Of a stretch of DNA of 64,000 bases, positions 563 to 14,465 are shown piece after piece. Each line of letters begins with the position of its first letter. The stretch's first letter is position 1. A program made the translations under genes and the position numbers. The DNA comes from Clostridium sp. BJN0013. Its GTDB lineage: Bacteria > Bacillota > Clostridia > Clostridiales > Clostridiaceae. A model generated the notes under the pieces. That model made no database searches, was not told the origin of the DNA, and was given only the letters and a program-made list of their open reading frames with translations. The DNA lies in NCBI RefSeq assembly GCF_040939125.1, contig NZ_CP162495.1:3348001-3412000 (forward strand). Direction: 5' to 3'.

Positions 563-1705
563 TTAGATTATACAATCTCCTTTATACTTACCCAATAATT
601 TAAAATAAACACTTTCATTTTCTATTCCTCTTAAAGCTTCTTGAGTATTTTGCTCTAAAATATTGCCATAGAAATCAATATAGAAAAAATACTGCCATGA
701 TCTATCTACCATAGGTCTAGACTCAATTTTAGTCATGTTCAGATTGTTTTCTTCAAAATATTTAAGCACTTTATATAGACTTCCAGGTTCATGAGGCAAA
801 GTAATCAATATACTAATTTTGTTTTCATTCTTATTACATTCTTCATTTCTACTTATTATTATGAATCTGGTATAATTGTTAGTATTATAATTTATATTTT
901 CACTTAATATTTCTAAGCCATAAAGTTCAGCTGCTTTCTTACTGGCTATAGATGCCCTACTTTTATCATTTTCTTCACTTACATATTTAGCACTTCTAGC
1001 TGTATTAAGATAAGGTATGAGACGCCAGTTTTTATGTTTATCCAAAAATCTACTGCTTTGCATAAAAGCTTGACTATGGGAATAAACCTCTTTTATATCA
1101 TTAAGAGAAGCTCCTTTTACTCCCAATAAATTATGATTAACCTTAATACATTTTTCTCCTACTATATAAAATCCATAATCACGGAGTAAATCATATACCT
1201 CTAAAATTCCTCCCGTAGAAGAATTCTCGATAGGTAGCACACCATAATTTATTTTTCCATCCTTTAATCCTTGAAATACATCTTTAAAGGTGTCAAAATT
1301 TAAAGCTTCAGCTTCATGTCCGAAATAGTCAATTAGAGCCTCATGACTAAATGAAGCCAATACCCCTTGAAATCCTACTTTACATGATTTATCATATTTT
1401 TTTACATTTAAACATTCCTTATTTGTATAACATGAACTTCCAAAACTTTTCTTTTGAAAATTTCTACTTATTTTCATAATTTCTTTTAGAAAAATTTTCG
1501 TTTCTTTTTCTATGGATTTATTCTCAAGCCTTTTTAATTGAGTTTGTATTACATTTTCTTCCCGACTTTTGTCCATTATATCCATATCATTCTTTTTTTT
1601 ATACTCTGCTACTTTACAGACTATATCCATTCTTTCCTGAAAAAGCTTAATCATTTCACCATCAATCTTATCTATTTTATCTCTCAAATAATCTAAACTT
1701 TCCAA
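563..1705 (-). CDS. pheA: Bifunctional chorismate mutase / prephenate dehydratase (P-protein)
   Basis: It converts chorismate to prephenate and prephenate to phenylpyruvate, committing carbon to phenylalanine. There are three domains: an AroQ-type helical chorismate mutase (about 1-85), a prephenate dehydratase (about 109-285, with GVLPIENSSTGG at 155-166 and the catalytic TRF at 279-281), and a C-terminal ACT domain (about 297-372). The ACT domain has GSLY and ESRP (328-331), the residues known to bind phenylalanine, so feedback inhibition by Phe is expected. At 380 residues it has the usual P-protein length. It appears to start at TTG (1705), with GGAGGT six bases upstream. It lies 28 nt downstream of aroC in the operon. 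Confidence 0.95.
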   Translation of the reverse strand: MESLDYLRDKIDKIDGEMIKLFQERMDIVCKVAEYKKKNDMDIMDKSREENVIQTQLKRLENKSIEKETKIFLKEIMKISRNFQKKSFGSSCYTNKECLNVKKYDKSCKVGFQGVLASFSHEALIDYFGHEAEALNFDTFKDVFQGLKDGKINYGVLPIENSSTGGILEVYDLLRDYGFYIVGEKCIKVNHNLLGVKGASLNDIKEVYSHSQAFMQSSRFLDKHKNWRLIPYLNTARSAKYVSEENDKSRASIASKKAAELYGLEILSENINYNTNNYTRFIIISRNEECNKNENKISILITLPHEPGSLYKVLKYFEENNLNMTKIESRPMVDRSWQYFFYIDFYGNILEQNTQEALRGIENESVYFKLLGKYKGDCII

Positions 1706-1733
1706 AATACTACCTCCATAAATAATGTAAAAT

Positions 1734-2816
1734 TCAATATTCCATTAAACTCAATATTCCTATAGCCGCCACTGCTTCAACCACAGGTACAGCCCTAGGT
1801 ACAATACATGGATCATGCCTTCCTTCTATTTTTAGAAATGTATTTTGTTTTTTATTTATATCTACAGTTTTTTGGGTTTTTGATATAGAAGGAGTGGGCT
1901 TTATAGCTGTTCTAAATATAACAGGCATTCCATTTGTAATTCCCCCTAAAATTCCCCCGTTATTATTTGTGTAAGTTTTCATTATATCATCTTCTGACAG
2001 GTAATATTCATCATTAGCTTCAGAACCTTTCATAGTAGTTATGTTAAAACCCTCACCAAATTCTACCCCTTTAACTGCAGGAACAGAAAATAACAAATGT
2101 GCAATACTGCTCTCTACAGAATCGAAAAAGGGCTCTCCTATACCTGCTGGTAAATTTACTACTGCAGTTTCTATAACTCCTCCTACAGAATCTCCTTCCT
2201 CTTTTACTTTTAAAATGCACTTTTCCATCTCTTTGCCTTTTACTCCATCCAATACAGGAAATTTACTCTTTGAAAGTTTAACAATGCTCTCCTCACTTAT
2301 AGAAACAGGATTAAAATAACTTCCATCTTCAATTGTACCTATGCTTTTTATATGGCTCCCTATTAATATTCCCTTATCTTCCAGTATTTTTTTACATATG
2401 GCACCTGCAAAAACCAAAGGTGCTGTTATTCTTCCTGAAAAATGTCCTCCACCTCTATAGTCATTAAACCCTCTATACCTTACATTACCAGTAAAATCTG
2501 CATGACCAGGTCTTAAAAGACTTGCAGTTTTTTCATAATCACGAGAGCGGGTATTATTATTTAATATAATTGCTGAAAGTGGTGTACCTGTAGTTCTTCC
2601 ATTAAAATAGCCACTTAAGATATCAAATTTATCCGTTTCTCTTCTCGGGGTAGAAAGAGGACTATCTCCTGGAGCTCTTCTCTTCATTTCATTTTTTATA
2701 TATTCCATATCAATTTCAATTCCTGGTTTTAGTCCATCTATAACTATTCCTATAGCTTTTCCATGTGATTCTCCAAAAATAGATAATTTTATTTTACTTC
2801 CCCACACTCCACTCAT
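1734..2816 (-). CDS. aroC: Chorismate synthase
   Basis: It makes chorismate from EPSP by an anti-1,4 elimination that needs reduced FMN. The family signatures are present in order: GESHG near residue 15, [15 protein letters not shown] in the first quarter, RPGHADFTG with [10 protein letters not shown] (flavin and substrate site), and a C-terminal [14 protein letters not shown]. At 360 residues the length is normal. The ATG at 2816 follows AGGAGGGG at a good distance. Its first 23 bases overlap the end of aroA in another frame, which implies translational coupling. No separate flavin reductase domain is seen, so it is probably the monofunctional bacterial type. Confidence 0.96.
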
Positions 2817-4074
2817 CTATTTCCCCTCCTAAACTTCTAAAATCTTCCCAAAAACCCGGATAGGACTTTTTCACACATTCAGCTCCCTCTATTACTAAAG
2901 GCTCTGTACATTTTGATGACACCGCTGCCAGTGCCATGGCTATCCTATGATCTTTCCAGCTGTTAACATTTCCCCCTTTAAGCTTTTCTTTTCCATGTAT
3001 TATAAGGCAATCCTCTTCTTCTATTACTTCTGCCCCAATTTTATTCAATTCAGAAGTTATTGCCTTTAGTCTATCTGATTCTTTAATCCTAAGTCTTGCT
3101 GCATTTATAATTTCAGTAGTTCCATGGCTTACAGAAGCTAATGCTGCAAGAACAGGTACAAGATCCGGACATTGGGAAACATCAATAACAACACCTGAAG
3201 TCTTAGAAGGTTTAACCTCTATACAATTTTCCTTTTCCTCAATTTCTACTCCCATATTCTTCAGTATATGTACTATAATTCTATCTCCTTGAAGAGAATC
3301 CATATCAAGCCCCCTACATGTGATTCCCTTGCCAAGGGCACCCATAACAAGCCAAAATGCTACTTGAGAAAAATCTCCTTCTATATTACAATCTACTCCT
3401 TTATAAGTTTGATTGCCTTTAATTATAAATTCTCTATAACTGCTTCCGTCTATGTAAATTCCAAATTTATCTAGCATATCAATAGTAATATCCACATAGG
3501 ATTTAGACTCCAATTCTGTAGTTATCTCTATTTTTGAATCTCCTTCTAAAAGAGGAAGTGCAAAGAGAAGACCTGTTATAAATTGGGAGCTTACATCCCC
3601 ACTGACTTTATAATTTCCTGGTTTTAACCTTCCATTTATAGTTAAAGGCAGCTTTCCGTCCTCTGTTTTATAATAAATTTTTTGACTTTCAAATATATCG
3701 TAGTACACATTTAAAGGCCTTTCTACTAACTTTCCGTCCCCTGTAAAAGTTATTTCTTTACCTAGAGTTGCAGCCAAAGGTATTAAAAATCTTAATGTAG
3801 AGCCAGACTGAAAACAGTGTATATTAGGTTCTTTTACATATAAACTTGGATTTCCCTTTATGGTTAACGAACTACTGCCTTTTTCTATAATTACACCTAA
3901 ACTTTTTAAAGCATTACAAGTAGCTTCTATATCTTCCGAAAAATCTACATTAGTTATATTACTTATACCATTGCTCAAAGAAGCACATATTAAAGCCCTA
4001 TGGCATACACTTTTTGAAGGTGGAACCCTTACCTGGCCCTCTAATTTAGTTGGATTTATTGATATATATTTCAT
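2794..4074 (-). CDS. aroA: 3-phosphoshikimate 1-carboxyvinyltransferase (EPSP synthase)
   Basis: It transfers the enolpyruvyl group of PEP to shikimate-3-phosphate. Diagnostic residues are the N-terminal [12 protein letters not shown] (K21, S22, R27), a [12 protein letters not shown] segment, [13 protein letters not shown], the [11 protein letters not shown] signature and a late DHRIAMALA. At 426 residues it is a complete protein of family length. The ATG at 4074 is preceded by AGGGGA. It sits 40 nt after aroB and overlaps aroC by 23 nt. The N-terminal substrate loop has a serine-rich rather than GNAGT-type local sequence (FQSGSTLRF), which recalls class II EPSP synthases; that is inference from sequence only. 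Confidence 0.95.
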
Positions 4075-4114
4075 AGATTGTCCCCTTTTTATCTATTTTT
4101 AACTAAAAATTGTC

Positions 4115-5194
4115 CTATATAATATCTCCAGAAAATAGAAATTCATATACATCTGATAATTTTATTTTCATTATTTTACATTTTCCTGCTTCTTCTATAA
4201 CTATGATATTTATTTTATCTCCCGAAGACTTTTTATCGAGAGCTATAGAGTTAACAAGAGTTTGTTTATCCATATCCGGCATATCTATTGGAAGTCCATA
4301 TTTCTTCAATATACCTTTCATATAGTCATAAGTTCCTTTTTTGGTTATATTCATTTTTTCAGTCCTATTTGTTATATATGCCATACCTATAGCAACAGCT
4401 TCTCCATGACTATATTTGCCATAATCATAATATTTTTCTATGCCATGTGCCAGCGTATGACCAAAATTTAGCATCATCCTTTCTCCTAAATCTCTCTCAT
4501 CTTTTTCTACCAACTCTTTCTTTATGTTACAGCACTTATATATTATATCCTCAATATATTCTAAAATTTCATCCTTATTCTTACAGAAATCTAGTCGTTT
4601 TAAAATACCCTTATCTTTTATAAATCCGTATTTTATAACTTCCCCCATTCCATCACTGAAAAATTTATCATTTAAAGATAGAAGTACATTTGGATCTATA
4701 AATACAGCATCTGGATGATAAAAACTTCCTACCAAATTCTTACCCCAGGGTAAGTCCACAGCCACTTTTCCACCTATACTACTATCTACCTGTGCCAAAA
4801 GAGAAGTAGGTACTTGAATATAATTTATACCTCTTAAGTAAGTTGAAGCAGCAAAACCTGAAAGATCTCCCACTACTCCACCTCCTAGAGAAATTATTAT
4901 ATCTTTTCTCCTTATCTGAAATTTACACAGTTCTCCATATACCCTTTCCAGTGTAGCTAAATTTTTACTCTTTTCTCCTGGTTCTATAGATATAATTTTC
5001 ACTGTAAATCCGCTGTCTAAAAGAGACTTTTTTAATATTTTCATATACAGTTTTTCTACATTTGTATCAGTAATTATCGCTATACTTTTACCCTGATAAA
5101 TAGGTCTTAATTTTTCTCCAATGGAACTTAATACATCTTTTTTTATATATATCCTATAATTTTTTTCTTTAACATTAATATCAATAGCCTTCAT
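4115..5194 (-). CDS. aroB: 3-dehydroquinate synthase
   Basis: It cyclises DAHP to 3-dehydroquinate with NAD and a divalent metal. Visible motifs are the NAD-binding SLGGGVVGDLSGFAAS, PTSLLAQVDSSIGGKV, and the metal ligands in DGMGEVIKYG (Glu), NFGHTLAHGIE (His) and YSHGEAVAIGM (His). The reading frame can open at GTG 5203, inside the tyrA stop. I prefer ATG 5194 (359 residues), because the AAAGGA ribosome site lies 11 bases from that ATG but only two or three from the GTG. Translational coupling with tyrA is likely either way. Confidence 0.94.
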   Translation of the reverse strand: MKAIDINVKEKNYRIYIKKDVLSSIGEKLRPIYQGKSIAIITDTNVEKLYMKILKKSLLDSGFTVKIISIEPGEKSKNLATLERVYGELCKFQIRRKDIIISLGGGVVGDLSGFAASTYLRGINYIQVPTSLLAQVDSSIGGKVAVDLPWGKNLVGSFYHPDAVFIDPNVLLSLNDKFFSDGMGEVIKYGFIKDKGILKRLDFCKNKDEILEYIEDIIYKCCNIKKELVEKDERDLGERMMLNFGHTLAHGIEKYYDYGKYSHGEAVAIGMAYITNRTEKMNITKKGTYDYMKGILKKYGLPIDMPDMDKQTLVNSIALDKKSSGDKINIIVIEEAGKCKIMKIKLSDVYEFLFSGDII

Positions 5195-5199
5195 GCAAA

Positions 5200-6072
5200 T
5201 CACTGTCCTTTAACTAATTCTTTTCTTTTTGACATGGACTTTTCAAAAATACATTTCATAGTACTTACATCTTTAGTCATTATAGCTTTCTTCAATATCT
5301 CCATGCTTCTTTGAAAACTTTCTATTTCCTCTATGAGATTATCTGAATTCATAATAAATAATTCAGTCCATAATTTAGAATTAATCTGTGCTACTCTAGT
5401 AGCATCTTTAAAGCTTCCCCCGGTGAATAATTCTATATTATCTTTATAATCTTCCCTATGTGAATTCATAAGAGATACAGCTATAACATGGGGAAGTTGA
5501 CTTGTAAAAGTAACTATCCTGTCGTGCTCCTCTGGACTTACATAGGTCACATTACTACAGCCTATAGCTCTTGCCATTTTATCTATTTTCTGAAGCCCCC
5601 GGGAAGTATTTTTTCCCCCGGGAGTTATTATATAATTGGCCCCTTTAAAAATATCTTTAGATGCCCACTTTATACCCATAGATTCCTTTCCTGCCATAGG
5701 ATGTCCAGGAATAAATTCTAAATATTCAGGCAAAAATGAATTTACACTCTCTACTATATTTTGCTTTATACCGGAAGTGTCTGTTATAAGCGTGCCTTTT
5801 TTTAAATACTGTAAATTATTTTTTATGAATTCAATTGTATCTTTAGGGTAAAGGGCTATTATAACAAGATCCATTTGCTTAAGAAAATCTCCTCCACTTT
5901 CATAAACCCTATCTACAATTCCATCATTTAAAGCACTTTTTAAAGCATATTTATCCTTATCTATTCCAATAATACATTTAGGCTTCAAGTCTCTGAGAGC
6001 CATAGCATAAGAGCCTCCAATAAGTCCCATACCTACAACAGCTATATTAATATTAAAGTCACAATCTTCCAC
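5200..6072 (-). CDS. tyrA: Prephenate dehydrogenase
   Basis: It oxidatively decarboxylates prephenate to 4-hydroxyphenylpyruvate with NAD, the tyrosine branch. The N-terminus has a Rossmann fingerprint, VVGMGLIGGSYAMAL, with an acidic residue in GIDKD that favours NAD. PGHPMAGKE carries the catalytic histidine. FTSQLPHVIA and GGSFKDATRVA are typical of the helical C-terminal domain. At 290 residues it is a stand-alone enzyme: there is no mutase and no C-terminal ACT domain, so Tyr feedback is not obvious from this protein. The start is GTG 6072 with AAGGAGG eight bases upstream. It lies between aroF and aroB. Confidence 0.94.
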   Translation of the reverse strand: MEDCDFNINIAVVGMGLIGGSYAMALRDLKPKCIIGIDKDKYALKSALNDGIVDRVYESGGDFLKQMDLVIIALYPKDTIEFIKNNLQYLKKGTLITDTSGIKQNIVESVNSFLPEYLEFIPGHPMAGKESMGIKWASKDIFKGANYIITPGGKNTSRGLQKIDKMARAIGCSNVTYVSPEEHDRIVTFTSQLPHVIAVSLMNSHREDYKDNIELFTGGSFKDATRVAQINSKLWTELFIMNSDNLIEEIESFQRSMEILKKAIMTKDVSTMKCIFEKSMSKRKELVKGQ

Positions 6073-6098: not shown

Positions 6099-7109
6099 CT
6101 ATAGTTTTATAACATCTATCATTTTATTTATGTCTTTCATAATATTTCGAAACACTTTTGGTTTTATAGATTGCTGTCCATCACATTTTGCATTGGCAGG
6201 ATCATTATGAACTTCAATCATAAGTCCATCTGCACCTACCGCCACTGCGGCCTTTGCAAGGGGTTCTACCATCCACCAAAGTCCTGCAGCATGACTTGGA
6301 TCAACTATTATAGGAAGGTGACTTAATTTTTTTATAGCAGGAATAGCACTTAAGTCTAAAGTATTTCTAGTATAGGTTTCAAAAGTTCTTATTCCTCTCT
6401 CACAGAGTATTACATTTTCATTTCCCTCAGACATTATATATTCTGCAGACATTAAAAGTTCTTCAATTGTAGAAGACAATCCCCTTTTTAAAAGAATCGG
6501 CTTTTTAGTTTTTCCTAGTTGTTTTAAGAGTTCAAAATTCTGCATATTTCTTGCACCTACTTGTATTACATCTACATCTTCTACAAACTTATCTATCATA
6601 TCTTCAGACATAATTTCTGTAACTATGGGAAGTCCTGTTTCCTGCCTTGCTATTTTTAAGAGTTCCAATCCTTCGTTTCCAAGTCCTTGAAAGCTGTAAG
6701 GTGATGTCCTTGGCTTGAAAGCACCTCCTCTTAAAAATTTAGCACCGCTTTCTTTTACATCCTTTGCAATTTCCACTATTTGTTCTTCACTTTCTACAGA
6801 GCAAGGGCCTGCTATAACTGCCAGTTTTTCTCCACCTATAGATGCATCTTTTACCTTAATTACAGTATCTTCTGGATGAAACAATCTGTTAACTAATTTG
6901 TAAGGTTGTTGAACCTTTTCTACATTTTCTACAAACTCATTGGCTCTTATTTTACTTGCATCAACTTTTGTAGTATCCCCAATCAGTCCCATTATACAAT
7001 ATTCTTTTCCCTGTATTACATTTATAGAAACATTATTTTCTGATTCAATTTTTTGTTTTAATATGATTATTTCTTCTGTCGGTGTTTTTGGACTCATAAT
7101 TACTATCAT
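6099..7109 (-). CDS. aroF: 3-deoxy-7-phosphoheptulonate synthase (DAHP synthase, type I-beta with regulatory N-domain)
   Basis: This is the first enzyme of the shikimate pathway, condensing PEP and erythrose-4-phosphate. Residues 1-75 form a ferredoxin-like domain (MIVIMSPKTPTEE to the IRANEFVENV region) of the kind that in Thermotoga-type enzymes mediates Phe/Tyr feedback. The barrel follows, with AGPCSVES, FKPRTSPYSFQGLG, GARNMQNFELL, LLKRG and VDPSHAAG. At 336 residues the length fits that class. It is the first structural gene of the operon. AAGGAGGAAC precedes ATG 7109, and the leader ORF and terminator at 7193-7426 lie just upstream. Confidence 0.95.
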   Translation of the reverse strand: MIVIMSPKTPTEEIIILKQKIESENNVSINVIQGKEYCIMGLIGDTTKVDASKIRANEFVENVEKVQQPYKLVNRLFHPEDTVIKVKDASIGGEKLAVIAGPCSVESEEQIVEIAKDVKESGAKFLRGGAFKPRTSPYSFQGLGNEGLELLKIARQETGLPIVTEIMSEDMIDKFVEDVDVIQVGARNMQNFELLKQLGKTKKPILLKRGLSSTIEELLMSAEYIMSEGNENVILCERGIRTFETYTRNTLDLSAIPAIKKLSHLPIIVDPSHAAGLWWMVEPLAKAAVAVGADGLMIEVHNDPANAKCDGQQSIKPKVFRNIMKDINKMIDVIKL

Positions 7110-7151
7110 CTCAGTTCCTCCTTAAATTTTTGAACACTTTAAAATTATAGG

Positions 7152-7180: not shown

Positions 7181-7187
7181 TTTTAAA

Positions 7188-7218
7188 ATAAAAAACAAGG
7201 CTCTAATGAGCCTTGTTT
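7188..7218 (-). terminator. Rho-independent terminator in the aro operon leader (attenuator)
   Basis: There is an 11-bp perfect stem, AAACAAGGCTC pairing with GAGCCTTGTTT, with a four-base loop. On the minus strand it is followed by a run of six T and then ATTTT. On the plus strand no T-run follows, so it acts on minus-strand transcripts. It lies 56 nt after the aromatic leader ORF and about 80 nt before aroF, with no complete gene upstream other than the leader. That placement is what is expected of a transcription attenuator. Confidence 0.85.
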
Positions 7219-7273
7219 GAATTAACTAAATACACACTGTATATAAAATTTATTTAATCATGCATTTTTATAA

Positions 7274-7426
7274 TTATCCTAACTCATCAGAAGGAGATTT
7301 TAATTTTTTAGGGAAGCAAACATAACCAGCGCTAAAATAAAAATAGCCCCAGCTAAAAGTAAAGTTAAAATAATATGAATTATTATTTACTACTGCTTCT
7401 TTTTCCCTTCCAATGATATTTTCCAT
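7274..7426 (-). CDS. Aromatic-residue-rich leader peptide of the aro operon
   Basis: A 50-residue ORF begins at ATG 7426 after GGAGGT (TAGGTGCA spacing) and ends at TAA 7274. Residues 18-38 hold five Tyr, six Phe and one Trp in 21 positions (YYFNFTFSWGYFYF is the core). It lies about 120 nt into the transcript predicted from the promoter at 7553-7580, ahead of a terminator and then aroF. By analogy with pheL and pheST leaders, a ribosome stalling at Phe/Tyr codons when charged tRNA is scarce would favour read-through. An AGGGAA/TTCCCT pairing brackets the aromatic codons. No clean antiterminator was visible by eye. It could instead be a small membrane-associated protein. The ORF itself is clear; the regulatory role is inferred. 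Confidence 0.75.
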   Translation of the reverse strand: MENIIGREKEAVVNNNSYYFNFTFSWGYFYFSAGYVCFPKKLKSPSDELG

Positions 7427-7552
7427 TGCACCTAACCTCCATAAACAATTACCATTACAATAAGTTTATAAAACATCTAAAAAACACTTAAACAAAACAT
7501 TCACAAGAGTTTTAATTTAATCCTGTAAAGTGATATATTCTATTTGTTCTTA

Positions 7553-7580
7553 ATTATAACATTTTTTATCTCTATGTCAA
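7553..7580 (-). promoter_or_regulatory. Consensus sigma-A promoter of the aro operon
   Basis: On the minus strand TTGACA (7580-7575) is separated by 16 bp from TATAAT (7558-7553), with an extended TGt in front of the -10. Transcription should start near 7546. This gives a leader of about 435 nt that contains the aromatic peptide ORF and the terminator before aroF. Confidence 0.85.
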
Positions 7581-14241: not shown

Positions 14242-14465
14242 ATGGATGAAGATAATGGGAGTAACTTTGTAAACCGTTATTGGACGAACCTCTGGAGAGA
14301 CTCTTTAAGAGCACCGAAGGGGAAAGCCAAAATTTTGGTGAAACTCTCAGGTAAAAAGGACAGGGGATTTCATGTTTTAAGTTTCTATCTATTTTTTATG
14401 GATGCATACTTAAAATCTGTTTTCCAGAGACTAATTTTATTTTTAGTCTCATTTTATTTTTTCTG
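14242..14465 (+). ncRNA. Glycine riboswitch (gcvT-type), single full aptamer, with terminator-like expression platform
   Basis: The aptamer spans about 14289-14366. P1 is CCTCTG with CAGGGG. GGAGAG follows, then a P2 hairpin (CTCTT/AAGAG), the conserved ACCGAAGGGG, and then GAAACTCTCAGG and AAAAAGGACAG. These are the consensus blocks of the glycine riboswitch. The 5' stretch 14242-14288 may be a degenerate partner (ghost) aptamer. Downstream, GAGACTAA / TTAGTCTC (14427-14450) followed by ATTTTATTTTTTC forms a terminator. Whether glycine turns it on or off cannot be read by eye. It controls the ACT and DUF711 genes. Confidence 0.85.

Follow-up and report, generated by a model that had tools for sequence, protein, structure and literature searches.

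The leader in front of the shikimate genes of Clostridium sp. BJN0013 is, with a probability which we place at roughly 0.86, a ribosome-mediated transcription attenuator that would read the supply of charged Phe- and Tyr-tRNA on behalf of the shikimate operon, and is neither a T-box nor an arrest peptide. Comparison of sequences brought out its open reading frame (ORF) together with the conservation of this frame, its RNA pairings, a hairpin which holds the aromatic codons, and a link between these codons and metabolism. An initial annotation of this DNA had proposed a Phe/Tyr-codon attenuator for the shikimate pathway, and the proposal is now supported by the composition kept among relatives, by an antiterminator and by the link of codon identity with prephenate dehydratase. 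Aromatic biosynthesis in Firmicutes is usually ascribed to T-boxes, TRAP or DNA-binding repressors, and the leader-peptide attenuators of enteric trp, pheA and his combine control codons in a leader ORF with mutually exclusive 1:2, 2:3 and 3:4 pairings and an intrinsic terminator.

In the window, by which we mean the whole stretch of 64,000 nucleotides that was analysed, all elements of the leader lie on the minus strand. The promoter (7553..7580) consists of TTGACA (7580-7575) and TATAAT (7558-7553) with 16 bp between them, and both hexamers are invariant across 13 aligned sequences. It is followed by the ribosome site GGAGG (7436..7440), to which the sites upstream of many leaders at other loci are comparable, and by an ORF of 50 amino acids (7274..7426; ATG at 7426, stop at 7276-7274), which was taken from the ORF list and is backed by homologues, and whose translation counts 12 Phe, Tyr or Trp among residues 18-38. 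The intrinsic terminator (7185..7218) has a perfect 11-bp stem formed by AAACAAGGCTC (7218-7208) and GAGCCTTGTTT (7203-7193) around the loop ATTA, and ends in the T-tract TTTATTTT (7192-7185). The strong promoter, the leader ORF with its good ribosome site and its 12 aromatic residues, and the terminator stem with its T-run before aroF had all been described in the initial annotation and are present as it stated; its estimate that the control codons lie about 90-160 nt before the terminator is also right, as codon 18 is ~157 nt and codon 38 ~97 nt away from the stem by count. Beyond the terminator lie the ribosome site AAGGAGG (7117..7123) and aroF, encoding DAHP synthase (6099..7109, ATG at 7109; DAHP_synth_1 2e-83, NF006421). 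The remaining shikimate genes (563..6072, minus strand) are tyrA (6072-5200, matched in the own genome), aroB (5203-4115), aroA (4074-2794) and aroC (2816-1734), the last three by the Pfam families DHQ_synthase, EPSP_synthase and Chorismate_synt, followed at 1705-563 by a gene whose prephenate dehydratase domain was matched in the own genome and whose other part we take to be a chorismate mutase. Judging by the spacing, aroF would be the first gene of the controlled operon, and the genes from aroF to prephenate dehydratase would form a single operon.

T-box leaders, which need no leader ORF, likewise attenuate transcription according to tRNA charging, and the genome itself has 31 T-box matches, 27 of them over the cut-off. 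The accessible part of PMC2494555 moreover describes T-boxes that regulate aromatic genes in some Firmicutes, so that control of the leader by a T-box, a riboswitch or an RNA-binding protein had to be weighed. Against it, neither a T-box nor any other Rfam match at gathering score was obtained at the leader, and in 13 loci scanned the lone T-box match (L126) is on the strand opposite the leader; we consider such control extremely unlikely. None of the genome's 31 matches to the T-box family (RF00230) falls inside the window, and the shikimate operon therefore departs from the genome's own habit. At gathering score, the sole Rfam match in the window is a glycine riboswitch aptamer at 14282-14373 (+; 62.8 bits), away from the leader. 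The leader peptide gave no Pfam match above the cut-off (the best being PapG_N, E 0.04, 14 bits against a cut-off of 25) and no NCBIfam match, and no entry for the leader was found in Rfam, Pfam or NCBIfam.

The same leader is widespread. When 98 genomes were searched with the leader peptide, matches came from the own genome and from each of the 12 further genomes of its genus, and 27 leaders were read out with confidence (L057-L082 and L085), 26 of them before a DAHP-synthase-like ORF and one (L078) before shikimate kinase. A profile built from 26 leaders matched 142 of 206 genomes of the family and 56 of 391 of the class at E 0.01 or less, the weakest of these matches being doubtful; the other 64 of the 206 family genomes gave no match to the profile, whatever their aroF content. 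The initial annotation had suggested that an aromatic-rich leader ORF be sought before aroF in related clostridia and had expected its codon composition to be conserved there; the profile matches in the family contain such leaders, and their composition is indeed conserved, with Phe and Tyr codons interchanging at most aromatic positions. Starting instead from aroF in named genomes gave 56 loci (Clostridium, Sporomusa, Phascolarctobacterium, Succiniclasticum and others); 52 of them have a full-length start preceded by 400 nt or more, and these were examined. In 48 of the 52 an ORF containing 8 or more aromatics within 20 residues lies upstream, which exceeds chance, the reverse strand giving 0/52 and shuffled windows 19/1040. 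In two of the four misses (L018 and L030) aroF is preceded by a second DAHP synthase gene, and a leader match stands in front of that gene; in the other two (L031 and L054) no aromatic-rich leader was found. Aromatic-rich leaders also occurred in named loci which we take to belong to the Negativicutes, and to judge by these sequences the earlier reading should be widened to include that class.

When all loci with a profile score of at least 14 were pooled we obtained 218 leaders, 191 of them distinct, and in 169 of the 191 loci the next ORF is aroF (DAHP synthase). Sixteen of the 22 other next ORFs were assigned by Pfam, namely 3-dehydroquinate synthase (aroB) in six, shikimate kinase (aroK) in five, an SSF symporter in two, and one each of the shikimate dehydrogenase N-domain (aroE), prephenate dehydrogenase (tyrA) and prephenate dehydratase (pheA); of the last six, L099 and L236 are cut off, and L225, L229, L234 and L235 are weak matches without a sensible neighbour. 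A terminator-like hairpin scoring at least 24 follows the ORF in 153 of the 191 loci, and no terminator was found after it in 18. Some genomes of genus g4 (G015, G184 and G187; L078, L140, L141, L143, L145 and L147) carry two to four leader copies, which precede aroF, aroE and aroK; the regulon here has grown by duplication of the leader. At another locus (L117) a Clostridiales-2 RNA of Rfam, scoring 80 bits, lies between the leader terminator and aroF (1317-1397, minus strand).

The initial annotation was mistaken in seeing no clear antiterminator, as the 3' end of the leader (CUGAUGAG) pairs with the 5' arm and loop of the terminator (CUCAUUAG). In the window the pairing joins 7291-7281 (UCUGAUGAGUU), a part of segment 2 (7281..7297), with segment 3 (GGCUCAUUAGA, 7201..7211), which lies inside the terminator 5' arm, the loop and the start of the 3' arm. 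CTRATGAG at the leader 3' end and CTCATTA in the terminator 5' arm and loop are among the best-kept stretches of the genus alignment, alongside the promoter and the core, and of the 173 hairpins detected downstream of the ORF, 117 have CTCATT inside their 5' arm and loop. For every locus we computed the best duplex between the post-core RNA and the terminator 5' arm plus loop, taking the profile column of the core glycine as anchor, which left 161 of the 191 loci usable (12 were without this column and 18 without a terminator). The duplex starts 27-42 nt past the anchor in 141 of the 161 loci, as compared with 567 of 3220 dinucleotide-shuffled controls. Of the 20 loci that deviate, nine have offsets of 111-120 and belong to genus g24; since one locus of this genus (L098) carries two successive terminators, the downstream one was probably picked in these cases. 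The first of the two tandem terminators in L098 carries CTCATTA and the second comes directly after it. From the odd offsets, tandem terminators are probably present in g24 also at L081, L099, L103, L106, L148, L152, L157, L164 and L168.

The two strands of the antiterminator fit each other better than they fit the strands of other loci. In 115 non-redundant pairs the energies with the own partner summed to -1226.8 and the best of 5000 partner exchanges reached -1123.0, and among the 56 loci lacking CTCATTA the own sum was -598.9 vs -517.1 for the best exchange. Because the motif is widely shared, the own partner of a single locus beats the median exchanged partner in only 69 (by rows) or 77 (by columns) of 115; measured against shuffles, single duplexes are modest, with a mean z of -2.1 and 51% below -2. 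The motif ATG[AG]G stands at the duplex site in 122 of the 141 loci (a count of ATGAG in 97/191 under an earlier, poor anchor is superseded by the core-glycine anchor), 55 times in frame 0, 61 times in frame 1 and six times in frame 2, with five copies overlapping the stop codon and one after it. Since it is kept in different reading frames, and even where it overlaps or lies past the stop, it is conserved as RNA. Fixed offset, frame independence and co-variation together identify, at the level of sequence, an antiterminator which would exclude the terminator.

The comparison also points to a third pairing partner at the start codons, by which the earlier reading has to be amended. The first leader codons pair with the same segment 2, with up to 22 contiguous pairs (L117 and L119) and 12 in the window, where segment 1, the protector strand, is formed by codons 4-8 (UCAUUGGAAGGGA, 7404..7416) and pairs with 7297-7284. 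Segment 1 was delimited by partner exchange, by a peak of pairing register and by covariation. Own partners gave -1791 and exchanged partners -1194 (sd 29), none of 5000 exchanges being as good. Among 92 distinct sequences that have both the motif and the standard N-terminus, one register is best, with 0.72 of positions paired; the next best reaches 0.55, and the median over registers is 0.43. A set of 23 representatives that are less than 78% similar gave a paired fraction of 0.726, vs 0.670 after permutation (sd 0.013, maximum 0.715 in 2000 permutations), and at 9 of the 16 positions of the stem both strands vary. A constitutive partial terminator that sets the level of expression, preceded by an ORF for a functional conserved small peptide, would agree with the long conservation of this small ORF, but the frame in which its C-terminal part crosses the RNA motif varies, and the antiterminator and protector pairings co-vary; we hold this explanation to be very unlikely.

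For the leader-peptide attenuator we infer translation of the ORF, stalling, pausing and regulated read-through, which would be connected in the following manner. Formation of the terminator (3:4) would stop transcription before aroF. If Phe or Tyr runs short, the ribosome would stall at the aromatic codons and segment 2 would be left free to pair with segment 3 as antiterminator, whereby RNA polymerase would read into aroF; and if no ribosome is present, the stem of the first leader codons with segment 2 (1:2) could sequester the latter. By analogy, the core hairpin described below probably pauses RNA polymerase so that the ribosome catches up. The first aromatic codon comes at a median of 12 nt after segment 1 (27 nt in the window), and at this median gap a ribosome of the usual footprint stalled at that codon would reach into segment 1.

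The initial annotation had suggested folding the leader RNA for mutually exclusive structures. The exclusive pairings emerge from sequence comparison, and an equilibrium model with a masked ribosome footprint supports the switch only partly. Among the 45 loci modelled, 2:3 stood above 1:2 in 19 without a ribosome, in 26 with a stall at the first aromatic codon, in 19 to 21 at three later stall positions and, by construction, in none with the ribosome over segment 2; stalls beyond the first aromatic codon make little difference. The window leader gave 0.00 for 1:2 and 1.00 for 2:3 without a ribosome, and 2:3 was dominant in every state except that of the ribosome over segment 2. As 2:3 dominates this model even without a ribosome, the protector in the window's clade may have a purely kinetic role or none, and switching there would depend mainly on whether the ribosome covers segment 2.

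A hairpin, AGC UGG GGC ... AGC GCU GG, holds the aromatic codons; it is conserved across the leaders and in the window (7324..7354) is closed by AGCUGGGGCUA ... UAGCGCUGGUU with one G-G mismatch, the aromatic codons occupying the loop and the arms. The minimum-energy structure of 7546-7185 (z -1.86) contains both this hairpin and the terminator. The peptide of this core (SWGYFYFSAG) is kept well beyond its aromatic content, as would be expected of a TnaC-like arrest peptide which, while nascent, senses an aromatic amino acid in the exit tunnel and stalls the ribosome. Selection acts on the codons, however, and not on the residues alone: the non-aromatic residues are fixed at the codon level, with AGC for Ser in 101/103 and 146/155, GGC for Gly in 134/146 and GCT for Ala in 127/147, where downstream ORFs mostly use other codons for Ser, Gly and Ala. 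These codons belong to a hairpin that folds better than synonymous recodings of it (mean z -3.2; 151 of 176 leaders in the best 5%). Seven of the eight proposed core pairs are formed in 136/176 up to 171/175 leaders, and the eighth is a kept mismatch, mostly G-G, which is paired in 10/178. Trp is replaced in 46 of 175 leaders, 40 times by Leu, Gln or Phe, and even so the first base of this codon position still pairs in 171/175 and the second in 142/174; the codons for aromatic residues are for the most part unconstrained in their third base, with Phe and Tyr replacing each other and tracking the pathway. With synonymous codons fixed and the hairpin selected, conservation of the peptide is largely a consequence of conservation of the RNA, and we regard an arrest peptide as improbable. 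In the attenuator, the run of Phe and Tyr codons is most likely the sensing part and, as an amendment to the earlier reading, the Trp codon seems to owe its conservation to the RNA hairpin and not to sensing.

The codons of the leaders go with metabolism. Sorted by the next gene, the core codons are seven Phe and no Tyr in the pheA leader, two Phe and seven Tyr in the tyrA leader, and no Phe with eight and five Tyr in the two symporter leaders, and leaders of common-pathway genes have Phe and Tyr codons mixed; the tyrA leader (L120) is an unclean case, with prephenate dehydratase (L268) following tyrA there. Comparison by operon content is weak because many loci end at ~9.5 kb, with tyrA just past this stretch in G115-type genomes: 35 loci had both genes and 10 neither, uncut operons made up 3/11 of the dehydratase-only and 11/18 of the tyrA-only class, and uncut operons gave p values of 0.019 (dehydratase-only vs tyrA-only), 0.097 (dehydratase-only vs both) and 0.0019 (both vs tyrA-only). 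A whole-genome test for prephenate dehydratase was used in its place. In 12 genomes counted as lacking the enzyme, seven by explicit zero matches (G014, G030, G045, G179, G200, G279 and G305) and five by not being among the matches, 150/206 and 285/391 (G239, G332, G376, G455 and G572), the median share of Tyr among Phe and Tyr codons was 0.78, vs 0.40 in 162 leaders of 152 other genomes. The one-sided p was ~2e-6 with genomes counted regardless of kinship, four of the 12 being of family f25, and ~3e-5 for 10 vs 151 leaders when genomes less than 90% complete, G455 and G572 among them, were omitted. G077 and G064 were counted as having the enzyme, and the weak loci L224-L230, L234 and L235 as well as G112, a weak match, were left out; L234 and L235 are from genomes without prephenate dehydratase, and their leaders do not stand before an aromatic gene. 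Within one genus, G019 has the enzyme and a leader with nine Phe and seven Tyr codons, and G200, which lacks it, has three Phe and ten Tyr. Two of the 12 genomes without the enzyme (G179 and G239) keep Phe-rich leaders; these apart, codon identity in the sequences compared matches the amino acid made. The SSF sodium symporters at L137 and L221 adjoin the leaders whose cores are Tyr-only, in genomes not among the prephenate dehydratase matches, and are candidate tyrosine importers. One genome having prephenate dehydratase (G173) carries a second, Tyr-rich leader (L162, three Phe and seven Tyr codons), perhaps a Tyr-specific copy.

The clostridial leader resembles the enteric trp, pheA and his attenuators in its leader ORF with control codons, its exclusive 1:2, 2:3 and 3:4 pairings and its intrinsic terminator. 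Unlike in these, segment 1 is the start-codon region and not the control codons, segment 2 lies at or near the end of the coding region, and the control codons, Phe and Tyr mixed, sit in a separate nested hairpin. It differs from T-box leaders in that no T-box match is found at it. A work by Panina of 2003 reportedly treats aromatic regulation in low-GC Gram-positives, and a 2010 study in Mol Biol is said to be a comparative analysis of attenuation. According to the accessible part of a 2021 paper (PMC8632094), the uORFC-13-1 motif stands before aroF in Acholeplasma and its authors proposed Phe-dependent attenuation for it; as described there it shares with the clostridial leader a terminator before aroF and an upstream ORF containing Phe codons, and it differs in having at least one Phe residue and in being reported only from Acholeplasma and environmental sequences, with 24 representatives. 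Classical attenuators have also been predicted in Firmicutes for His leaders, as far as the accessible parts of PMC2965389, PMC4833913 and PMC9413887 go (17 genomes in the last, of 2022), theirs having His codons and his genes. Among PMC listings, outside which key subscription papers lie, no paper evidently about the clostridial system came up, and a prior description is possible. Most likely, then, the clostridial leader is a widespread leader-peptide attenuator with structural features of its own, such switches being known mainly from other bacterial groups. We lean, with some reserve, towards the wider view that one ancient aromatic attenuator extends over Clostridia and Negativicutes and was copied before many aromatic genes, that its codons were re-coded as a record of the amino acid made, and that the peptide is a by-product of the hairpin.

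If so, auxotrophy and the specificity of transporters could be read from the text of the codons, which at L137 and L221, for instance, points to Tyr for the SSF symporters. A leader attenuator in about two thirds of the family genomes searched (142/206) would change the picture of Firmicutes, would offer a natural comparison of codon to regulon in more than 100 genomes, and would allow auxotrophies and the substrates of unassigned transporters to be predicted from a stretch of 20 codons. It would also give work on solventogenic and acetogenic clostridia a defined point at which the whole shikimate operon is controlled.

Between the terminator and the aroF ribosome site the window also has a perfect dyad, TAACTTCTA-AAGCTAGCA-TAGAAGTTA (7179-7153, minus strand), which the genome contains only once when up to 3 mismatches are allowed and which occurs also in five close relatives (G003-G006 and G011). 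It is possibly a protein site or an mRNA-end hairpin, and in some other species a dyad-like stretch unrelated to it takes this place.
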